Assembly (NCBI RefSeq): GCF_011250515.1
Contig: NZ_JAANOP010000002.1
Location: forward strand, 62,001-126,000
DNA: 64,000 nucleotides
Source: Aquirufa ecclesiirivi
GTDB taxonomy: Bacteria; Bacteroidota; Bacteroidia; Cytophagales; Spirosomataceae
Direction: 5' to 3'
The notes beneath the pieces were generated by a model that had not been told where the DNA came from, made no database searches, and saw nothing but the letters and a program-made list of their open reading frames with translations. Positions within the stretch are counted from its first letter, which is position 1. Each line of letters starts with the position of its first letter. Made by a program: the position numbers and the translations under genes. Shown in pieces: positions 48,470-56,452 of this stretch.

Positions 48470-50359
48470 CTATTTTACTTCCTCGAAAGCTACATCTTCT
48501 GCTTCACTAGCGCCATTGGCAGAAGCATCCGCTGTATTTTCTGTTGCACCTGCAGTTTCACCAGCAGCGTACATTTCTTGGGAAGCAGCAGTCCAAGCTG
48601 TATTAAGTTTTTCCAAGCCAGCATCAATAGCAGCTACATCTTGGGAAGCATGAGCTGTTTTTAATTCAGCTAATGCACCTTCAATGGCTGATTTGTTTCC
48701 TTCTGAAAGCTTCTCTCCATATTCTTTCAATTGCTTTTCAGATTGGAAAATTAAAGCATCAGCTTGGTTGATTTTCTCAACACGCTCTTTCTCAATTTTA
48801 TCGCTCGCTTCATTGGCCTTTGCCTCGTTGCGCATTTTTTCAATTTCAGCATCTGTTAAGCCACTGGAAGCTTCGATACGGATTTTTTGTTCCTTACCAG
48901 TTCCTTTGTCTTTCGCAGATACATGCAAAATACCGTTGGCATCAATGTCGAAAGTAACTTCAATTTGAGGTACTCCACGTTGTGCTGGTGGCAAACCATC
49001 TAAGTGGAAACGTCCTAATGAACGATTATCCTTCGCCATAGGTCTTTCTCCTTGCAATACATTTAACTCAACGGATGGCTGGTTATCTGCGGCAGTCGAG
49101 AATACTTCTGACTTCTTAGTTGGAATGGTTGTATTCGCTTCAATTAACTTAGTGAATACACCTCCCATCGTTTCAATCCCTAAAGATAATGGAGTCACAT
49201 CAAGTAACAAAACATCTTTTACTTCACCGGTTAAAACTCCACCTTGAATAGCAGCTCCTAAAGCGACAACTTCGTCTGGATTCACTCCTTTAGAAGGTTT
49301 CTTTTCAAAGAATTTTTCTACTTCTTCTTGAATTCTAGGAATACGAGTTGAACCTCCTACTAAAATAACCTCATCGATGTCTGCATTAGAATATCCTGCA
49401 TTTTTCATGGCTCTTTTGCATGGCTCCAAGGTACGTTGAATCAAACTATCAGCTAGTTGCTCAAATTTAGCACGTGTTAAATTGCGAACTAAGTGCTTTG
49501 GAATACCATTCACTGGCATGATATAAGGCAAATTGATCTCGGTGGACGCGCCAGAACTTAATTCAATTTTAGCCTTTTCAGCCGCTTCTTTTAAGCGCTG
49601 AAGTGCCATTGGATCTTTACGCAAGTCGATGTTTTCATCTGAAATGAATTCTTGAGCCAACCAATCAATGATTACTTGGTCAAAATCATCTCCTCCTAAG
49701 TGGGTATCACCATCAGTAGATTTTACTTCAAAAACTCCCTCACCCAATTCTAAGATCGATACGTCAAAAGTTCCACCACCTAAGTCGAACACCGCAATCT
49801 TCATATCCTTACCTTGCTTGTCGACACCGTAAGCTAAAGCTGCAGCAGTGGGTTCATTGATGATACGTTTCACTTCTAAGCCTGCAATTTGGCCCGCTTC
49901 TTTCGTTGCTTGACGTTCTGCATCATTGAAATAAGCAGGAACAGTAATAACAGCCTCTGTAACAGTTTGTCCTAAATAATCTTCTGCTGTTTGCTTCATC
50001 TTCGTTAAGATTTGCGCAGAAATTTCTTGTGGGGTATATAAACGATCACCGATGCGAACACGTGGAGTATCGTTATTCCCTTTTTCAACTTGATATGAAA
50101 TCGTTTTTAATTCAGAACTTACATCACTATATTTTTTACCCATAAATCTTTTAACAGATGATATGGTATTTTGAGGATTGGTAATCGCTTGTCTTTTGGC
50201 AGGATCTCCTACTTTACGCTCCCCATTCTCCAAAAACGCTACAATGGAGGGAGTTGTTCTTCTTCCTTCTGAGTTAGCAATAACAACTGCCTCATTTCCT
50301 TCCATTACGGCCACACATGAATTGGTGGTACCTAGGTCAATTCCAATAATTTTTCCCAT
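48470..50359 (-). CDS. dnaK: Chaperone DnaK (Hsp70)
   Basis: 629 residues from ATG 50359 ([20 protein letters not shown]); the frame is open nine codons further, but those do not belong to the family. ATPase motifs [28 protein letters not shown] and [15 protein letters not shown] are present. The substrate-binding domain has [17 protein letters not shown], and the acidic C-terminus ends [11 protein letters not shown], close to the EEVD-like GrpE/DnaJ tail. grpE and dnaJ are not adjacent. A palindrome TGACATATTGTCA lies upstream at 50428-50440. Confidence 0.97.
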
Positions 50360-50427
50360 GATTATTATTTTATTTTTTACCCCCATGTTACAAGGAATAT
50401 GCCATGAAAGCTGTTTTAAACAAATGC

Positions 50428-50440
50428 TGACATATTGTCA
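50428..50440. promoter_or_regulatory. Perfect palindrome upstream of dnaK
   Basis: TGACATATTGTCA, a 5-3-5 palindrome 69 bases before the dnaK ATG. It is not a CIRCE element. The location between dnaK and the divergent desaturase promoter suggests an operator for dnaK. Confidence 0.45.
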
Positions 50441-50499
50441 CGTACTCTCCCATAAATAATAAAATTCAATAAATTTCGTCAGTAAATAGGCATATGTGT

Positions 50500-50507
50500 T
50501 ATCTTTG
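50500..50507 (+). promoter_or_regulatory. -7 element for the desaturase
   Basis: TATCTTTG, full match, 22 bases before ATG 50530. It lies inside the longer frame starting at 50494, so translation must begin at 50530. Confidence 0.55.
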
Positions 50508-50529
50508 CAACAAGAAAATATGTTCAATT

Positions 50530-51531
50530 ATGTCTGAATTTAATGACTTTACGTGGGTAGAAGGTTCAGAGCCTCACCGTCAACGTACAAGAGAAATCAT
50601 CAAGAAACACCCCGAAGTAAAAAAATTAATTGGTAAAAATCCGAGTACAATGTGGTGGATTTTGGCCTGTGTTGGTTTACAAATTACCCTAGCCTATTTT
50701 TTGAAAGATTCACCCTGGTGGTTAATTGTTGCCGCCGCTTGGTTTGTAGGTGCATTCCCAACACATACCTTATTCGTATGTATTCACGAGACCGCCCATA
50801 ATTTGGTATTCAAAAAAAATTCATGGAATGTGTTTGCTGGGATTGTTGCTAACTTCCCCTCTTTATTTCCTACAGCCATTTCTTTCAAAAACTACCACTT
50901 AAAGCACCATGCTTTTCAAGGGGTACATGAACTGGATGCGGATTTACCTGATTATTGGGAAGCAAAATTGATTAACAATTATTTCATTGGTAAAGCCATT
51001 TGGTTATTATTATTTCCCTTCTTTCAAGCTATTCGTACCATTCGTTGTATTGAGTTAGCCGTATTTGATCGCTGGGTAATCATGAACATTGTAGCACAAT
51101 TCGCTTTTGATGCTTTGATTGTGTACTTATGGGGCTGGCCTGCCTTGGCTTACATGGGTTTAAGTTTCCTGTTTTCTGTGGGTTTACATCCACTAGGCGC
51201 TCGTTGGATTCAAGAGCATTATTTGGTTTTAGATAAAAATCAGGAAACGTATAGTTACTATGGTGGTTTGAATGGCATCAATATGAATGTGGGTTACCAT
51301 AATGAACACCATGATATGCCTTCTATTCCTTGGAATAATCTTCCAAAATTAAAGGCTGCAGCACCTGAGTATTATGATAATTTGAAATACCATACCTCCT
51401 TTGTCAAATTGTTCTTCACTTTCCTATTCTCTCAAGAGGTAGGTTTATATTCAAGAATTGCCCGTAAAGAACGCGGTGGAGTTGTATTAACAGATGTTTC
51501 TACACCCGATATTGATTTAGCTAAAGAATAA
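50530..51531 (+). CDS. Dihydroceramide delta-4 desaturase-like enzyme (DEGS1 type)
   Basis: 333 residues, integral membrane di-iron desaturase. The three histidine boxes are CIHETAHN (His86, His90), NYHLKHHAF (His123, His126, His127) and GYHNEHHDMPSIP (His257, His260, His261). Beyond the boxes it follows human DEGS1 from memory along its full length: FTWVEGSEPHRQRTREII at the start, QETYSYYGGLN, NMNVGYHNEHHD, and PEYYDNLKYH near the end. This points to introduction of a delta-4 double bond into a ceramide-type sphingoid chain; sphingolipids are known in this phylum. No serine palmitoyltransferase is nearby. Its own promoter and terminator; the start is set by the promoter and by the homology. 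Confidence 0.85.
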   Translation: MSEFNDFTWVEGSEPHRQRTREIIKKHPEVKKLIGKNPSTMWWILACVGLQITLAYFLKDSPWWLIVAAAWFVGAFPTHTLFVCIHETAHNLVFKKNSWNVFAGIVANFPSLFPTAISFKNYHLKHHAFQGVHELDADLPDYWEAKLINNYFIGKAIWLLLFPFFQAIRTIRCIELAVFDRWVIMNIVAQFAFDALIVYLWGWPALAYMGLSFLFSVGLHPLGARWIQEHYLVLDKNQETYSYYGGLNGINMNVGYHNEHHDMPSIPWNNLPKLKAAAPEYYDNLKYHTSFVKLFFTFLFSQEVGLYSRIARKERGGVVLTDVSTPDIDLAKE

Positions 51532-51550: not shown

Positions 51551-51578
51551 AAAAAGGCCTCATTTGAGGCCTTTTTTT
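51551..51578. terminator. Bidirectional terminator between desaturase and GH65
   Basis: Eleven-bp stem AAAAAGGCCTC/GAGGCCTTTTT with loop ATTT; the T run overlaps the GH65 stop codon (51577-51579). Works on both strands. Confidence 0.85.
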
Positions 51579-53877
51579 ATATTACTACAGTTGAGTTTGC
51601 TGCAACATGAAGCTTCTTATCATGGATGACAATTTCACTAGCATGACCCGCTAAATTTTGTACTTTCACCCCTGCTTGGTTGACTTCAATTTCTAAATGA
51701 TCATTTCTGAAATTGATTTTAAAACGATAGCTCTTCCATTGCTTCGGTAAAAATGGGGCTAAGTGTAATTGGTTATTTTGAACACTTTGCCCTGCAAAAC
51801 CTTTAATAATAGACATCCAGGTTCCTGCCATGCTGGTAATATGACAGCCATCTTCAGTATCATTGTTATAATCATCTAAATCCAATCTGGCAGCTCGGGT
51901 ATAAAATTCATACGACTTATCTTCCTTACCTAATTTGGCAGCCAAAATACTATGAACACAAGGACTTAAGGATGATTCATGGACGGTTAAGGGCTCATAA
52001 AATGAATAATTTCTTTCAATCTCATCCAAAGAGAAATCTGATTCAAAGAAATACATACCTTGTAAAACATCTGCTTGCTTAATATAACAAGAGCGTAATA
52101 TTCGATCCCAAGACCAATGTTGATTGATGGGACGTTGCTGGGCAGGGATTTGATCAACGGGTGCAATAATTTTATCTAAGAAACCATCTTGCTGAAGATA
52201 TATGCCTCTTTTTTCATCTCTTGGATAGTGCATGTGTTGAACAATATGTTCGAACTCTACTAATTCCTCGACTTTAAATTGACTTTTCTCTAGTTTGATA
52301 GAAGTCTCATTCGGGTACAATTGAGTGATTTCTTGATGAACTTCTTGAACATAAGACAAACACCAAGCTGCTAGGTAATTGGTATACCAGTTATTATTGA
52401 CATTGTTTTCATACTCATTTGGACCAGTTACACCCAACATGACATATTTTTGAAGATTTTCTGACCAATTGACACGTTGCTTCCAGAATCGAGCAATGGC
52501 TAATAATACATCCCAGCCATAATCAAGCAAGTGTCTTTTATCATCTGTGTATTGTACATAATCCTTGATGGCATAAGCAATGGCACCATTACGGTGAATT
52601 TCTTCAAAGGTTATCTCCCATTCATTGTGGCATTCCTCCCCATTCATAGTCACCATCGGATATAATGCTGCCCCTTGGTCAAAACCTAGTTTCTGTGCAT
52701 TTTCGATGGCCTTATCCAATTGCTTCCAACGGTAGATCAAGAGATTTTTAGCTACCTGAGATGGTGCCGTTGATAGGTAAAAAGGTATGCAATAAGCTTC
52801 TGTATCCCAATAAGTAGATCCTCCATATTTTTCACCTGTAAATCCTTTGGGACCAATATTTAATCGATCGTCTTTGCCTGTATACGTTTGATTGAGTTGG
52901 AATATGTTAAATCGGATTCCTTGCTGTGCTGCTACATCACCTTCAATGACGATATCATTGCTGTTCCACTTTTCTGCCCATGCTAATGCCTGTTCTTGTA
53001 ACATTTGATCAAATCCTTTAGATGCAATCTTCGTGAGGTATTGGGATAGTGCTATTTCAAAATCTGTGGTTGGGTGATTTTCGGAGCTTAAATTGATGGC
53101 ATATTTAAATAAGGTAATAGGCTCATTTTCAATCACATCCACTTGGTAGCTTAAAACGCTATATTTTTCTCTAGTTTCAGATTGAGCTTGAACATGGACT
53201 TTTTGTCCATTTTGGTAAATGTGCACTTCTTGTCCGGTGATGACTTCAAAATGAGTTTTTTTAGTTTTTGACCATACAAAGGAACGATTTCCTTGAGCCT
53301 CTACTTTGACTTGATCCCAAAACTTCTCTTGATAATTAGAATCTTTATTTTGGATATCTCCGTCGATATAGGCTTTTAGTTGAATTGATCCAGAAAAATT
53401 GACGGGAGTGATGCTGTATGAAATAGCACCAGATTCGTCATCAGCCATGCTATTGAAACGAATGGATTTAATTTTTAATCGTTTGTTATTCGATAAGGTG
53501 ATTTCGCAAGTACGAAGCAAATACCCCTCTTTCATATTCAATTCTCGATAAAATTCATGTATGCTTGCTTGGTGTAGGTCGACCTTCACTCCTTCTATCT
53601 CAATGTCTATTCCGATCCAATTGGCGGCATTTAATACTTTGGCAAAATATTCTGGATAGCCGTTTTTCCACCAACCAACGCGCGTTTTATCAGGATAATA
53701 AACCCCTGCCACATAATTTCCTTGAAGTGTTTTACCCGTGTAGCTTTCTTCAAAATTGGCTCTTTGTCCCATTCGGCCATTCCCTAAGGAAAAAATGGAT
53801 TCCGTGATTTCGTTGAATTCAGGATGGAATGAATCTTCAATGACTTTCCAAGCATCATGTTTTAAATACTGTTTCAT
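51577..53877 (-). CDS. Maltose phosphorylase-type GH65 enzyme
   Basis: 766 residues, cytoplasmic (no signal peptide). Inverting phosphorolysis of maltose to beta-glucose 1-phosphate and glucose is predicted. The acid catalyst is Glu488 in GVTGPNEYENNVNNNW, near the position known for the Lactobacillus enzyme, and phosphate-site strings include YGGSTYWDTEAYCIPF. Starts with the N-terminal beta-sandwich (WKVIEDSFHPEFN, SLGNGRMGQRANFEE). Kojibiose or trehalose phosphorylase are possible alternatives, but the neighbouring pgmB and GH13 enzymes fit maltose. 41 bases after pgmB in the same leftward transcript. Confidence 0.9.
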   Translation of the reverse strand: MKQYLKHDAWKVIEDSFHPEFNEITESIFSLGNGRMGQRANFEESYTGKTLQGNYVAGVYYPDKTRVGWWKNGYPEYFAKVLNAANWIGIDIEIEGVKVDLHQASIHEFYRELNMKEGYLLRTCEITLSNNKRLKIKSIRFNSMADDESGAISYSITPVNFSGSIQLKAYIDGDIQNKDSNYQEKFWDQVKVEAQGNRSFVWSKTKKTHFEVITGQEVHIYQNGQKVHVQAQSETREKYSVLSYQVDVIENEPITLFKYAINLSSENHPTTDFEIALSQYLTKIASKGFDQMLQEQALAWAEKWNSNDIVIEGDVAAQQGIRFNIFQLNQTYTGKDDRLNIGPKGFTGEKYGGSTYWDTEAYCIPFYLSTAPSQVAKNLLIYRWKQLDKAIENAQKLGFDQGAALYPMVTMNGEECHNEWEITFEEIHRNGAIAYAIKDYVQYTDDKRHLLDYGWDVLLAIARFWKQRVNWSENLQKYVMLGVTGPNEYENNVNNNWYTNYLAAWCLSYVQEVHQEITQLYPNETSIKLEKSQFKVEELVEFEHIVQHMHYPRDEKRGIYLQQDGFLDKIIAPVDQIPAQQRPINQHWSWDRILRSCYIKQADVLQGMYFFESDFSLDEIERNYSFYEPLTVHESSLSPCVHSILAAKLGKEDKSYEFYTRAARLDLDDYNNDTEDGCHITSMAGTWMSIIKGFAGQSVQNNQLHLAPFLPKQWKSYRFKINFRNDHLEIEVNQAGVKVQNLAGHASEIVIHDKKLHVAANSTVVI

Positions 53878-53918
53878 AGGGTTCTAATTAGGAGCGCAAA
53901 TACGATGAATAGATAGGA

Positions 53919-54566
53919 TTAAAGAAGAAGAAGTTCAGATACTTGTAGTTCTGTAAAAGAGGAAATGACTTTATCCGCGCCTCGCAAAATGGTTGGAGAG
54001 CCAACTCCTACCACTTTCATTCCACCCGCTTTGGCGGCATCTATACCGGCTTGGGCATCTTCAAATACAATACATGCTGTCGCGGGGCAGCCTAGTGCTT
54101 CCGCTCCTTTTAAAAATACTTCAGGGTCTGGTTTACTTTTTGTTACTACGTTTCCGTCTATTATGGCATTAAACCAAGTTGTTAAGCCTGTTTTTTCTAA
54201 AATAATACCAGCATTTTTACTCGCAGAACCTAAGGCAATCAGGTAGCCTTGTTCTTTTAATTGTTGTAGGAAGGAAATGACACCCGGCAATATTTCACAG
54301 GGATTCATGTGCGAAATGAGCTCTAAGTAAGTCTCATTTTTTTCTTTGAGCCAACGACCCTTTTGTTCTTGCGTAGCTTGAAAATGTGCCCAATGCAAGA
54401 TTTTATCTAAAGACTCAACTCGGGAAATCCCTTTGAGTTCTTCATTTTGCTCATGACTTAATTCAAAATCAAAATGTTTCCCTAAAATTTTCCATGCTTG
54501 AAAATGATATACTGCGGTATCTACGAGTACGCCATCTAAGTCGAAAAGACAGGCTTTATACTTCAT
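53919..54566 (-). CDS. pgmB: Beta-phosphoglucomutase
   Basis: 215-residue HAD phosphatase-fold mutase converting beta-glucose 1-phosphate to glucose 6-phosphate. CLFDLDGVLVDTAVYH gives nucleophile Asp9 and acid-base Asp11; IALGSASKNA is HAD motif II and IDGNVVTKSKPDPEVFLK motif III, with VFEDAQAGIDAAKAGG as motif IV. It takes the product of the GH65 phosphorylase that follows. Starts 179 bases from the divergent GH13 gene. Confidence 0.93.
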   Translation of the reverse strand: MKYKACLFDLDGVLVDTAVYHFQAWKILGKHFDFELSHEQNEELKGISRVESLDKILHWAHFQATQEQKGRWLKEKNETYLELISHMNPCEILPGVISFLQQLKEQGYLIALGSASKNAGIILEKTGLTTWFNAIIDGNVVTKSKPDPEVFLKGAEALGCPATACIVFEDAQAGIDAAKAGGMKVVGVGSPTILRGADKVISSFTELQVSELLLL

Positions 54567-54666
54567 TTTATAATTTTTAGGGTTATGCTATATTTCAAAA
54601 ATACGAGTTTTCCAGCTGCGGAAAAAGCGAAATTTGGCTTATTTGAGCCCTTTATCTTGTTATTGA

Positions 54667-54702
54667 GGAATAATTTAATTTTATTTAAACTAGAATTATT
54701 CC
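54667..54702. promoter_or_regulatory. Inverted repeat between pgmB and the GH13 gene
   Basis: GGAATAATT (54667-54675) and its exact inverse AATTATTCC (54694-54702), 18 bases apart, centred in the divergent gap of the maltose genes. It may be a regulator site or a hairpin. Confidence 0.35.
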
Positions 54703-54745
54703 GACCTAAGCCTATTTTTTTAGAAATTAATAGATTCAGATTTAC

Positions 54746-56452
54746 ATGAAAGAGAAAAGATCCCATAAGTTTATCGTATATCAAATGATGTTTCATTTAT
54801 GGGGCAATACCAATACCGATTTAGCTTTTAACGGTTCATGTCAAAGAAATGGAGTTACCAAATTTTCTGACATATCCATCAAAGCTTTGCAAGCCTTGGC
54901 GAAAAAAGGATTCACTCATATTTATGCGACTGGTATCATCGAACATGCCACTATGGAGGATTTTTCTGCCTATGGATCCCCATTAGATCATCCATCCATT
55001 GTGAAAGGTCGGGCTGGTTCACCCTTTGCCATCAAAGATTATTATGACGTTAATCCCTTCTTAGCAATTGATCCTGCCAAAAGAATGGAGGAGTTTGAGG
55101 AAATGTTGGAGCGAATTCATGCCTGTGGTTTGCATTTGATTTTGGATTTTGTACCGAATCACCTGGCCAGACAATACCATTCAGATAAGAAGCCAAAAGG
55201 AATTAGTGATTTTGGACTAAATGATCAGACAGATAAATCTTTTGATCCCAATAACAATTTTTATTATTTACCAGGTACTCAATTTTCTGTGCCTGATGGT
55301 TTAGATATACCTGTACCCTATTCTATTCCTTATATTGAAATTCCCGCCAAAGTGAGTGGAAATAATGTTTTTTCGGCTCAGCCCTCGAAAGATGATTGGT
55401 TTGAAACCGTGAAGTTGAATTATGGAATCGATTTTCAACATGGAGAAAAGACCTATTTTGATCCGATACCGGATACTTGGTTAAAACTGCTCGATGTTTT
55501 AGTCTACTGGACTAATAAAGGAATTGATTCTTTTCGATGTGATATGGCTGAAATGGTTCCTGTGGAATTTTGGGCTTACGTCATTCCTAAGATCAAGTCT
55601 ATCAATTCCAAAGTGACATTCATTGCTGAAATTTACCAACCTTATCGTTACCAGGATTATATCTATCGAGGTGGGTTTGATTATTTATATGATAAAGTAG
55701 GTTTATATGATGCCTTAAGAAGGTTGATGGAAGAGAAACCTAAAGCTACGGTAGAGGATATTACTCGTGTATGGCAACATGAATCAGGGGAATTTTCTGA
55801 GCACATGTTACGCTTTCTGGAAAATCATGATGAAACTAGAATAAATAGTCCTGGTTTTGCTCAACATAATCTATGGTCAACTATTCCAGCTATGGTCATA
55901 ACTGCTTGTCTGCATCATGGACCATTAATGACCTACATGGGACAGGAATTTGGTGAGTCTGCCAATGAGGTGGAAGGATTTAATTTGGCGCAAGATCGCA
56001 CCACTATGTTTGATTTTTGGCGGGTAGAATCACATCAAAGATGGATGAATCAAGGGCAATTTGATGGGGCAGAATTAACTAAGGAGGAAAAACAATTGGA
56101 TGATTTTTATGTGGATTTGTTTCAATTCGTACATGCACATCCTGCTATTCAAGAAGGGCATTTTTTTGATTTACAATATGCTCAAAATGAACATTATCCG
56201 AAGAGAAAAGTCTATTCATTTTTAAGATATACTTCCAAAGAAAAATTGTTAATCGTATGTAATTTTGATTCTCAACAATATTATTCTTTGGATATTCAAT
56301 TACCCAACTTGGCGAAAGAGATGATGAACGTGTCCCAAGTTAAGTTGAAATTAATACAAGCATTTGTGCCACCAGCTGTGAGAGAACACCTTCAACAAGC
56401 TGATGTGGCGATGTTGCCCCCGAACAGTGCTTATGTTTTTATGATTTCATAA
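54746..56452 (+). CDS. GH13 alpha-amylase family enzyme
   Basis: 568 residues without a signal peptide, so probably cytoplasmic. Catalytic triad: Asp266 (SFRCDMAEM), Glu295 (FIAEIYQPYRY) and Asp362 (ENHDETR). LILDFVPNH is conserved region I. A beta-sandwich C-domain begins near residue 465. Subfamily and specificity are not clear (maltodextrin hydrolysis or transfer). It is divergent from pgmB-GH65, and its stop overlaps the next start (TAATG). Confidence 0.88.
   Translation: MKEKRSHKFIVYQMMFHLWGNTNTDLAFNGSCQRNGVTKFSDISIKALQALAKKGFTHIYATGIIEHATMEDFSAYGSPLDHPSIVKGRAGSPFAIKDYYDVNPFLAIDPAKRMEEFEEMLERIHACGLHLILDFVPNHLARQYHSDKKPKGISDFGLNDQTDKSFDPNNNFYYLPGTQFSVPDGLDIPVPYSIPYIEIPAKVSGNNVFSAQPSKDDWFETVKLNYGIDFQHGEKTYFDPIPDTWLKLLDVLVYWTNKGIDSFRCDMAEMVPVEFWAYVIPKIKSINSKVTFIAEIYQPYRYQDYIYRGGFDYLYDKVGLYDALRRLMEEKPKATVEDITRVWQHESGEFSEHMLRFLENHDETRINSPGFAQHNLWSTIPAMVITACLHHGPLMTYMGQEFGESANEVEGFNLAQDRTTMFDFWRVESHQRWMNQGQFDGAELTKEEKQLDDFYVDLFQFVHAHPAIQEGHFFDLQYAQNEHYPKRKVYSFLRYTSKEKLLIVCNFDSQQYYSLDIQLPNLAKEMMNVSQVKLKLIQAFVPPAVREHLQQADVAMLPPNSAYVFMIS

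Follow-up and report, generated by a model that had tools for sequence, protein, structure and literature searches.

The DNA analysed here, a stretch of 64,000 nucleotides from Aquirufa ecclesiirivi (the window), contains a gene whose product, as judged from its sequence, is a membrane di-iron Δ4-desaturase of the sphingolipid DES family with intact catalytic boxes. The genome in which it resides contains no recognizable SPT and no close ceramide synthase gene; it does encode SulA, an enzyme of sulfonolipid synthesis. The desaturase therefore probably acts in this organism on sulfonolipids (N-acyl-capnine), which would give a sphingosine-like 4-ene capnine. A wider proposal, to which we give about an even chance, is that an animal-type sphingolipid Δ4-desaturase has been re-purposed in entire genera (Aquirufa and its kin, and Spirosoma and its kin) for the formation of sphingosine-like, 4-unsaturated sulfonolipids by cells unable to produce ceramide; true 4-unsaturated inositol-phosphoceramides would be the product of a single gene cluster in its sister clade, and one desaturase family would serve both kinds of lipid. 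The enzyme family itself is known. As far as the literature search goes, its members in SPT clusters and its occurrence in SPT-less, SulA-bearing hosts are new: neither a bacterial DES nor a sulfonolipid desaturase was found among the matches listed for the open-licence literature, in the portions of those papers that were available.

The desaturase gene and its product

The features of the gene are as follows.

50500–50507, + strand: TATCTTTG, possible Bacteroidota-type −7 promoter element (by eye, against the consensus)
50530–51531, + strand: DES-family membrane desaturase gene, 333 amino acids plus stop (ORF call, translation, Pfam)
50542–50643, + strand: Lipid_DES N-terminal domain (PF08557), residues 5–38 (Pfam, 1.4e-15, 56.9 bits, cut-off 23)
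50785–50799, + strand: histidine box 1, HETAH, residues 86–90 (translation and alignment; H86 and H90 invariant in 29 sequences)
50896–50910, + strand: histidine box 2, HLKHH, residues 123–127 (translation and alignment)
51298–51312, + strand: histidine box 3, HNEHH, residues 257–261 (translation and alignment)
51551–51576, + strand: intrinsic-terminator-like stem of 11 pairs, followed by a T-run (terminator scan)

ORF calling and translation bear out 50530–51531 as a real coding gene, as stated in a preliminary description of the window. The ORF callers place the start further 5′, at the ATG at 50494. The start at 50530 is preferred, because the TATCTTTG element sits 3′ of 50494 and 22 bases 5′ of 50530, and because the N-termini of most aligned relatives fall only a few residues away from it. 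The −7 promoter consensus of the Bacteroidota is TAnnTTTG, which TATCTTTG fits. No σ70-type promoter was found on the + strand upstream of the gene within 50300–50530. Of the promoter and terminator ascribed to the gene in the preliminary description, the latter may be represented by the terminator-like stem at 51551–51576 (two such stems were found in the scanned region, against 1.1 expected in shuffled sequences), and the former by the possible −7 element.

The dnaK gene (48470–50386, minus strand; named by eye) is divergent from the DES gene and the gene on the 3′ side (51577–53877, minus strand) is convergent, so the DES gene stands alone beside dnaK, as had been described. For the membrane-stress role suggested on that basis, adjacency to dnaK is the sole support. 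By eye, the genes on the 3′ side (51577–56452) resemble those for a sugar phosphorylase, a β-phosphoglucomutase and an amylase-family enzyme.

In addition to PF08557, which scored 61 bits in a search of the organism's own genome, the protein contains the FA_desaturase domain PF00487 (84.6 bits, Pfam); a search of NCBIfam returned two weak matches, both far under their cut-offs. The three histidine boxes follow the pattern HxxxH, HxxHH, HxxHH, and all eight histidines are fully conserved in an alignment of 29 Bacteroidota sequences, made up of the window protein and 28 relatives. Also conserved in this alignment are P15-H16, QET-SYYG and HNEHHD. One incomplete sequence (L015) was left out of the alignment and the tree.

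The protein was compared with what we take to be the sequence of human DEGS1, entered without reference to a database. BLASTP gave 130 identities in 318 positions (approximately 41%, full length), with an E value of 2e-80 and five gap positions, and the two proteins have the same two Pfam domains. The match extends beyond the histidine boxes, as had been claimed, with the blocks ETYSYYG, NVGYHNEHHD and EYYDNL aligned in order. The organism's genome encodes two further PF00487 proteins, L082 and L083 (four matches in three proteins). The window protein is 25% identical to L082 over 201 amino acids (3e-7) and has no match to L083. The Pfam domains, together with the contrast between 2e-80 and 3e-7, support membership of the DES family, as opposed to grouping with the genome's other desaturase-like proteins. 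The pairwise scores strongly favour DEGS, within a comparison made up of the presumed DEGS1 as the one eukaryotic sequence, two contrasting paralogues and an unrooted tree.

A predicted structure of the protein (mean pLDDT 74.5, weak at residues 128–137 and 310–333) was compared with the PDB. The top matches were single chains from two FtsHi-complex entries (Z 17.1 and 15.6), followed by AlkB (Z 14.1 with 249 residues aligned at rmsd 4.2, and Z 13.1 with 245 aligned at rmsd 3.8); SCD1 was matched at Z 5.2. The predicted fold may thus be assigned at the level of the membrane di-iron superfamily. A search of the PDB by sequence found nothing at E≤1.

Relatives of the enzyme and their gene clusters

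The search for named relatives matched at least 596 stretches and confirmed at least 581, of which the best 80 were kept. The closest named relatives among the matches listed are Aquirufa nivalisilvae and A. aurantiipilula, with DES proteins 98% identical to that of the window; next among those listed are other Aquirufa, Sandaracinomonas, Pseudarcicella, Arcicella, Flectobacillus, Spirosoma, Fibrella, Hymenobacter and Mucilaginibacter.

An α-oxoamine synthase gene was present in the DES flank in six of the best 80 named loci (L107, L108, L110, L111, L113 and L123), all from Saprospiraceae or other Bacteroidota MAGs; seven of the 80 have a length below 9 kb, so that linkage may have escaped notice there. 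The DES proteins of the six loci are 67–75% identical to that of the window. They adjoin SPT, CerS-like and CerR-like genes, whereas the window gene stands alone. All six clusters run on one strand throughout, in the order fatty-acid hydroxylase, SPT, GNAT (CerS-like), and then DES and an epimerase (CerR-like). The epimerase precedes DES in L107, L108, L110 and L111 and follows it in L113 and L123; L113 has a DES frame that overlaps the genes on either side. A myo-inositol-1-phosphate synthase gene comes next in five of the six (not in L113), and homologues of CDP-alcohol-transferase and PAP2 lie further on in four.

Two of these loci, L110 and L111, were covered by a family-library search. 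The L110 synthase lies just over the cut-off of the SPT model (640.9 versus 640 bits). L111 contains a BT1523-type phosphoinositol synthase (360, cut-off 350); a further match in this locus, to phosphoinositol dihydroceramide synthase, falls under its cut-off (323 versus 480). Pfam provided the assignments of hydroxylase, GNAT and epimerase in L110 and of INO1 in L111. Caulobacter has an acyltransferase, bCerS, and a reductase, CerR (PMC11087976), and it is by analogy with these that the GNAT and epimerase of the clusters are called CerS-like and CerR-like.

In a tree of 78 DES proteins (31 of 109 rows were left out to thin genera), the six cluster DES and L109 form a clade with support of 100/97, which is sister to the clade containing the window protein (union 100/98). 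No sphingolipid cluster was found in the flanks of L109. The link of the family to sphingolipids is thus upheld by close relatives of the window gene, and the cluster context, together with the sister-clade position, indicates that the Bacteroidota DES is very probably a long-chain-base (dihydroceramide-type) desaturase. The contig of L123, which has the same hydroxylase–SPT–GNAT–DES cluster, is labelled Thermoanaerobaculia (Acidobacteriota) and is probably mis-binned.

The preliminary description had also considered a transferred gene. As a recent event this finds no support: the G+C content of the gene (0.37–0.38) is like that of its neighbours, and DES is present in 14 of the 17 sampled genomes of the genus. 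A viral origin was rejected, as none of 29 pattern matches in IMG/VR was confirmed as a relative, no PHROG was matched, and by fold only generic giant-virus desaturases were found.

Four DES proteins from another class (L002–L005, four of the six available from family f24) are 43–49% identical to the presumed human DEGS1, versus 41% for the window protein, and their alignment scores with DEGS1 exceed those with the window protein. In an unrooted tree of 43 hand-picked sequences plus the presumed DEGS1, the four group with DEGS1 at a support of 100/99. Bacterial DES bear in this way on the origin of the eukaryotic enzymes, and the likeness of L002–L005 to DEGS1 on its direction, whether from bacteria to eukaryotes or the reverse.

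Genes for sulfonolipid and ceramide synthesis

The A. ecclesiirivi genome is 99.66% complete and contains 17 matches to Aminotran_1_2, of which the four α-oxoamine-synthase-like ones were compared with NCBIfam. These are a glycine C-acetyltransferase (Kbl; 706 bits, cut-off 493), a BioF-like protein (345 bits, cut-off 426), a distant BioF-like protein (61 bits) and L039, which scored 291 bits against the SPT model (cut-off 640). No SPT was recognized in this genome: the best score against that model was 341 bits, from Kbl, and there was no match at E≤1e-130. L039 is closest to SulA (7u7h; 2.4e-178), followed by a 'cysteate-C-fatty acyltransferase' (28eh; 1.6e-164) and SPT (3a2b; 7e-67). The 7u7h protein is the Alistipes cysteate acyl-ACP transferase, SulA, and according to Radka et al. 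the residue that distinguishes it from SPT is Lys281, in place of which SPT has Ala (PMC9304779). In our alignment all 23 distinct SulA-like proteins have Lys in this column (24 rows, with the protein of this genome entered twice), all 13 SPTs have Ala, and Kbl has Asn. The genome therefore encodes a SulA with the Lys281 equivalent. No close CerS-like orthologue (E≤1e-100) was found in it, the best match being 28% identical at 9.8e-39. By its gene sequences the organism has the enzyme for 3-ketocapnine and no recognizable one for 3-ketosphinganine.

These results differ from the setting of animal DEGS1 and do not support the preliminary proposal of ceramides of the eukaryotic kind in this organism. 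An organism devoid of sphingoid bases had been named there as evidence against such an enzyme; their absence is indicated only at the level of genes, by the lack of a recognizable SPT or close CerS.

The distribution of these genes was determined with thresholds of E≤1e-100 for SulA and E≤1e-130 for SPT, set in gaps in the score lists. Among 395 sampled genomes of the phylum, 40 contain a PF08557 match that exceeds its cut-off; the 14 control genomes contain none. SulA was found in at least 139 of the 395 and SPT in at least 297, with 17 of the latter exceeding the SPT cut-off; up to four candidates per genome were scored, so that genomes lacking DES may be undercounted, and the 40 DES-bearing genomes were scored fully. 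Among these 40, seven have SulA only, 17 SPT only and 16 both. In the window's class (98 genomes), SPT is present in eight of 15 genomes with DES versus nine of 83 without (Fisher, 5e-4), an association in favour of ceramide at the level of the class.

The window's family, represented by 150 genomes, shows the opposite pattern. SulA is present in all 150, DES in 58 (13 of 36 genera) and SPT, with up to 11 candidates scored per genome, in 36, all over the cut-off; no genome has both DES and SPT. This non-overlap has a Fisher value of 1.1e-9 by genome, with genomes treated as independent, and by genus (13 with DES and seven with SPT of the 36) p is 0.029, without a phylogenetic model. Close CerS-like genes (E≤1e-100) are confined to 32 of the 150, each of which has SPT and lacks DES. 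Weaker CerS-like matches only (best E values from 1.7e-56 to 1.8e-17) were found in 104, and in 14 there was none at 1e-10. Among the DES-bearing genomes, four of genus g172 have CerS-like matches of 31–32% at 1e-53 to 1e-43.

Linkage was determined in regions of up to 20 kb around 28 DES, 20 SulA and 12 SPT genes, taken from part of the 40 DES-bearing genomes of the phylum. No DES was found near SulA or SPT in these regions. The SPT regions contain a CerS-like gene in 11 of the 12 and a CerR-like gene in nine. In A. ecclesiirivi, DES and sulA are 238 kb apart on one contig (C19, 112542 versus 350660).

Several minor features of the SulA genes were observed. In one SulA region (L200) a CerS-like gene lies approximately 7 kb away. 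SulA-like domains (44–47% identity) occur in open frames of 1113–1171 amino acids, which are possible fusions with further domains (G254:C158:4356-5513, G219:C210:29621-30778 and G179:C1:441628-442785). Two SulA-like genes per genome were seen in G312, G331 and several genomes of genus g190.

Candidate substrates of the Aquirufa enzyme

Capnine is an analogue of sphinganine with a sulfonate in place of the hydroxyl at C1, and the two are alike from C2 to C5; as they differ at C1, the chemistry at C3–C5 would be the same. The enzyme would act on N-acyl-capnine (or capnine), placing a double bond at C4–C5. The known sulfonolipid pathway consists of SulA/CapB, CapA and CapC (PMC9304779, PMC10191378); A. 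ecclesiirivi shares with it a SulA carrying the Lys281 equivalent, and no desaturase step was found in the available portions of the literature matches listed. The link between DES and sulfonolipids is made by exclusion, because SulA is present in all 150 genomes of the family, with or without DES; the substrate, the double-bond position, the later pathway steps, the electron donor and an effect on the outer membrane are inferred. To be counted against the link are the lack of linkage between DES and sulA in the regions searched, the association of DES with SPT in the class, and the 17 of 40 DES-bearing genomes with SPT and no SulA.

If this reading is true, members of the Bacteroidota make the sphingosine-type double bond, thought to be typical of eukaryotes, in both ceramides and sulfonolipids. 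Sulfonolipids act on eukaryotes, RIF-1 triggering rosettes in choanoflagellates (PMC3463246), and an enzyme that sets their unsaturation would therefore be a handle on that signalling, as well as on outer-membrane order and gliding.

A true dihydroceramide Δ4-desaturase, supplied with ceramides by an unrecognized synthase or by uptake from the environment, is unlikely. The family, the cluster context of close relatives and the presence of SPT in 33 of the 40 DES-bearing genomes of the phylum are consistent with it, and since the SPT-linked enzymes are so similar to that of the window, strict specificity for ceramide with an external substrate is conceivable. Against this, neither SPT nor a close CerS-like gene accompanies DES in any of the 58 DES-bearing genomes of the family, and the four α-oxoamine-synthase-like proteins of the organism resemble Kbl, SulA and two BioF-like proteins.

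It is similarly doubtful that the substrate is another amide-linked 3-hydroxy-acyl lipid, of the glycine lipid, ornithine lipid or flavolipin type. Such lipids accompany capnine lipids in Labilibaculum (PMC12927429), and the co-occurrence of SulA with DES is unspecific, but a 2-amino-3-hydroxy long-chain base is what membership of the DES family and the SPT-cluster relatives suggest. A glycerolipid fatty-acyl desaturase of the ordinary kind, similar to DES only in appearance, would share PF00487 and a fold matched at superfamily level (AlkB at Z 13–14, SCD1 at Z 5.2); the PF08557 domain, the relatives in SPT clusters and the far stronger match to the presumed DEGS1 than to L082 or L083 make this very improbable. 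DEGS2 has been reported as a bifunctional desaturase/hydroxylase. A hydroxylase, or a bifunctional enzyme of that kind, acting on the long-chain base to make hydroxy-capnines like that of RIF-1, is considered very improbable here. In its favour are the 5-hydroxyl on the capnine base of RIF-1 (PMC3463246) and the fold seen in the AlkB match, which is common to desaturases and hydroxylases.

In A. ecclesiirivi, the distant CerS-like GNAT homologue (28%; G000:C11:697539-698636), not accepted as a ceramide synthase, is a candidate capnine N-acyltransferase. A gene that by eye resembles a lipid kinase (diacylglycerol/sphingosine kinase type; L048:10724-11596) lies approximately 0.8 kb after sulA.
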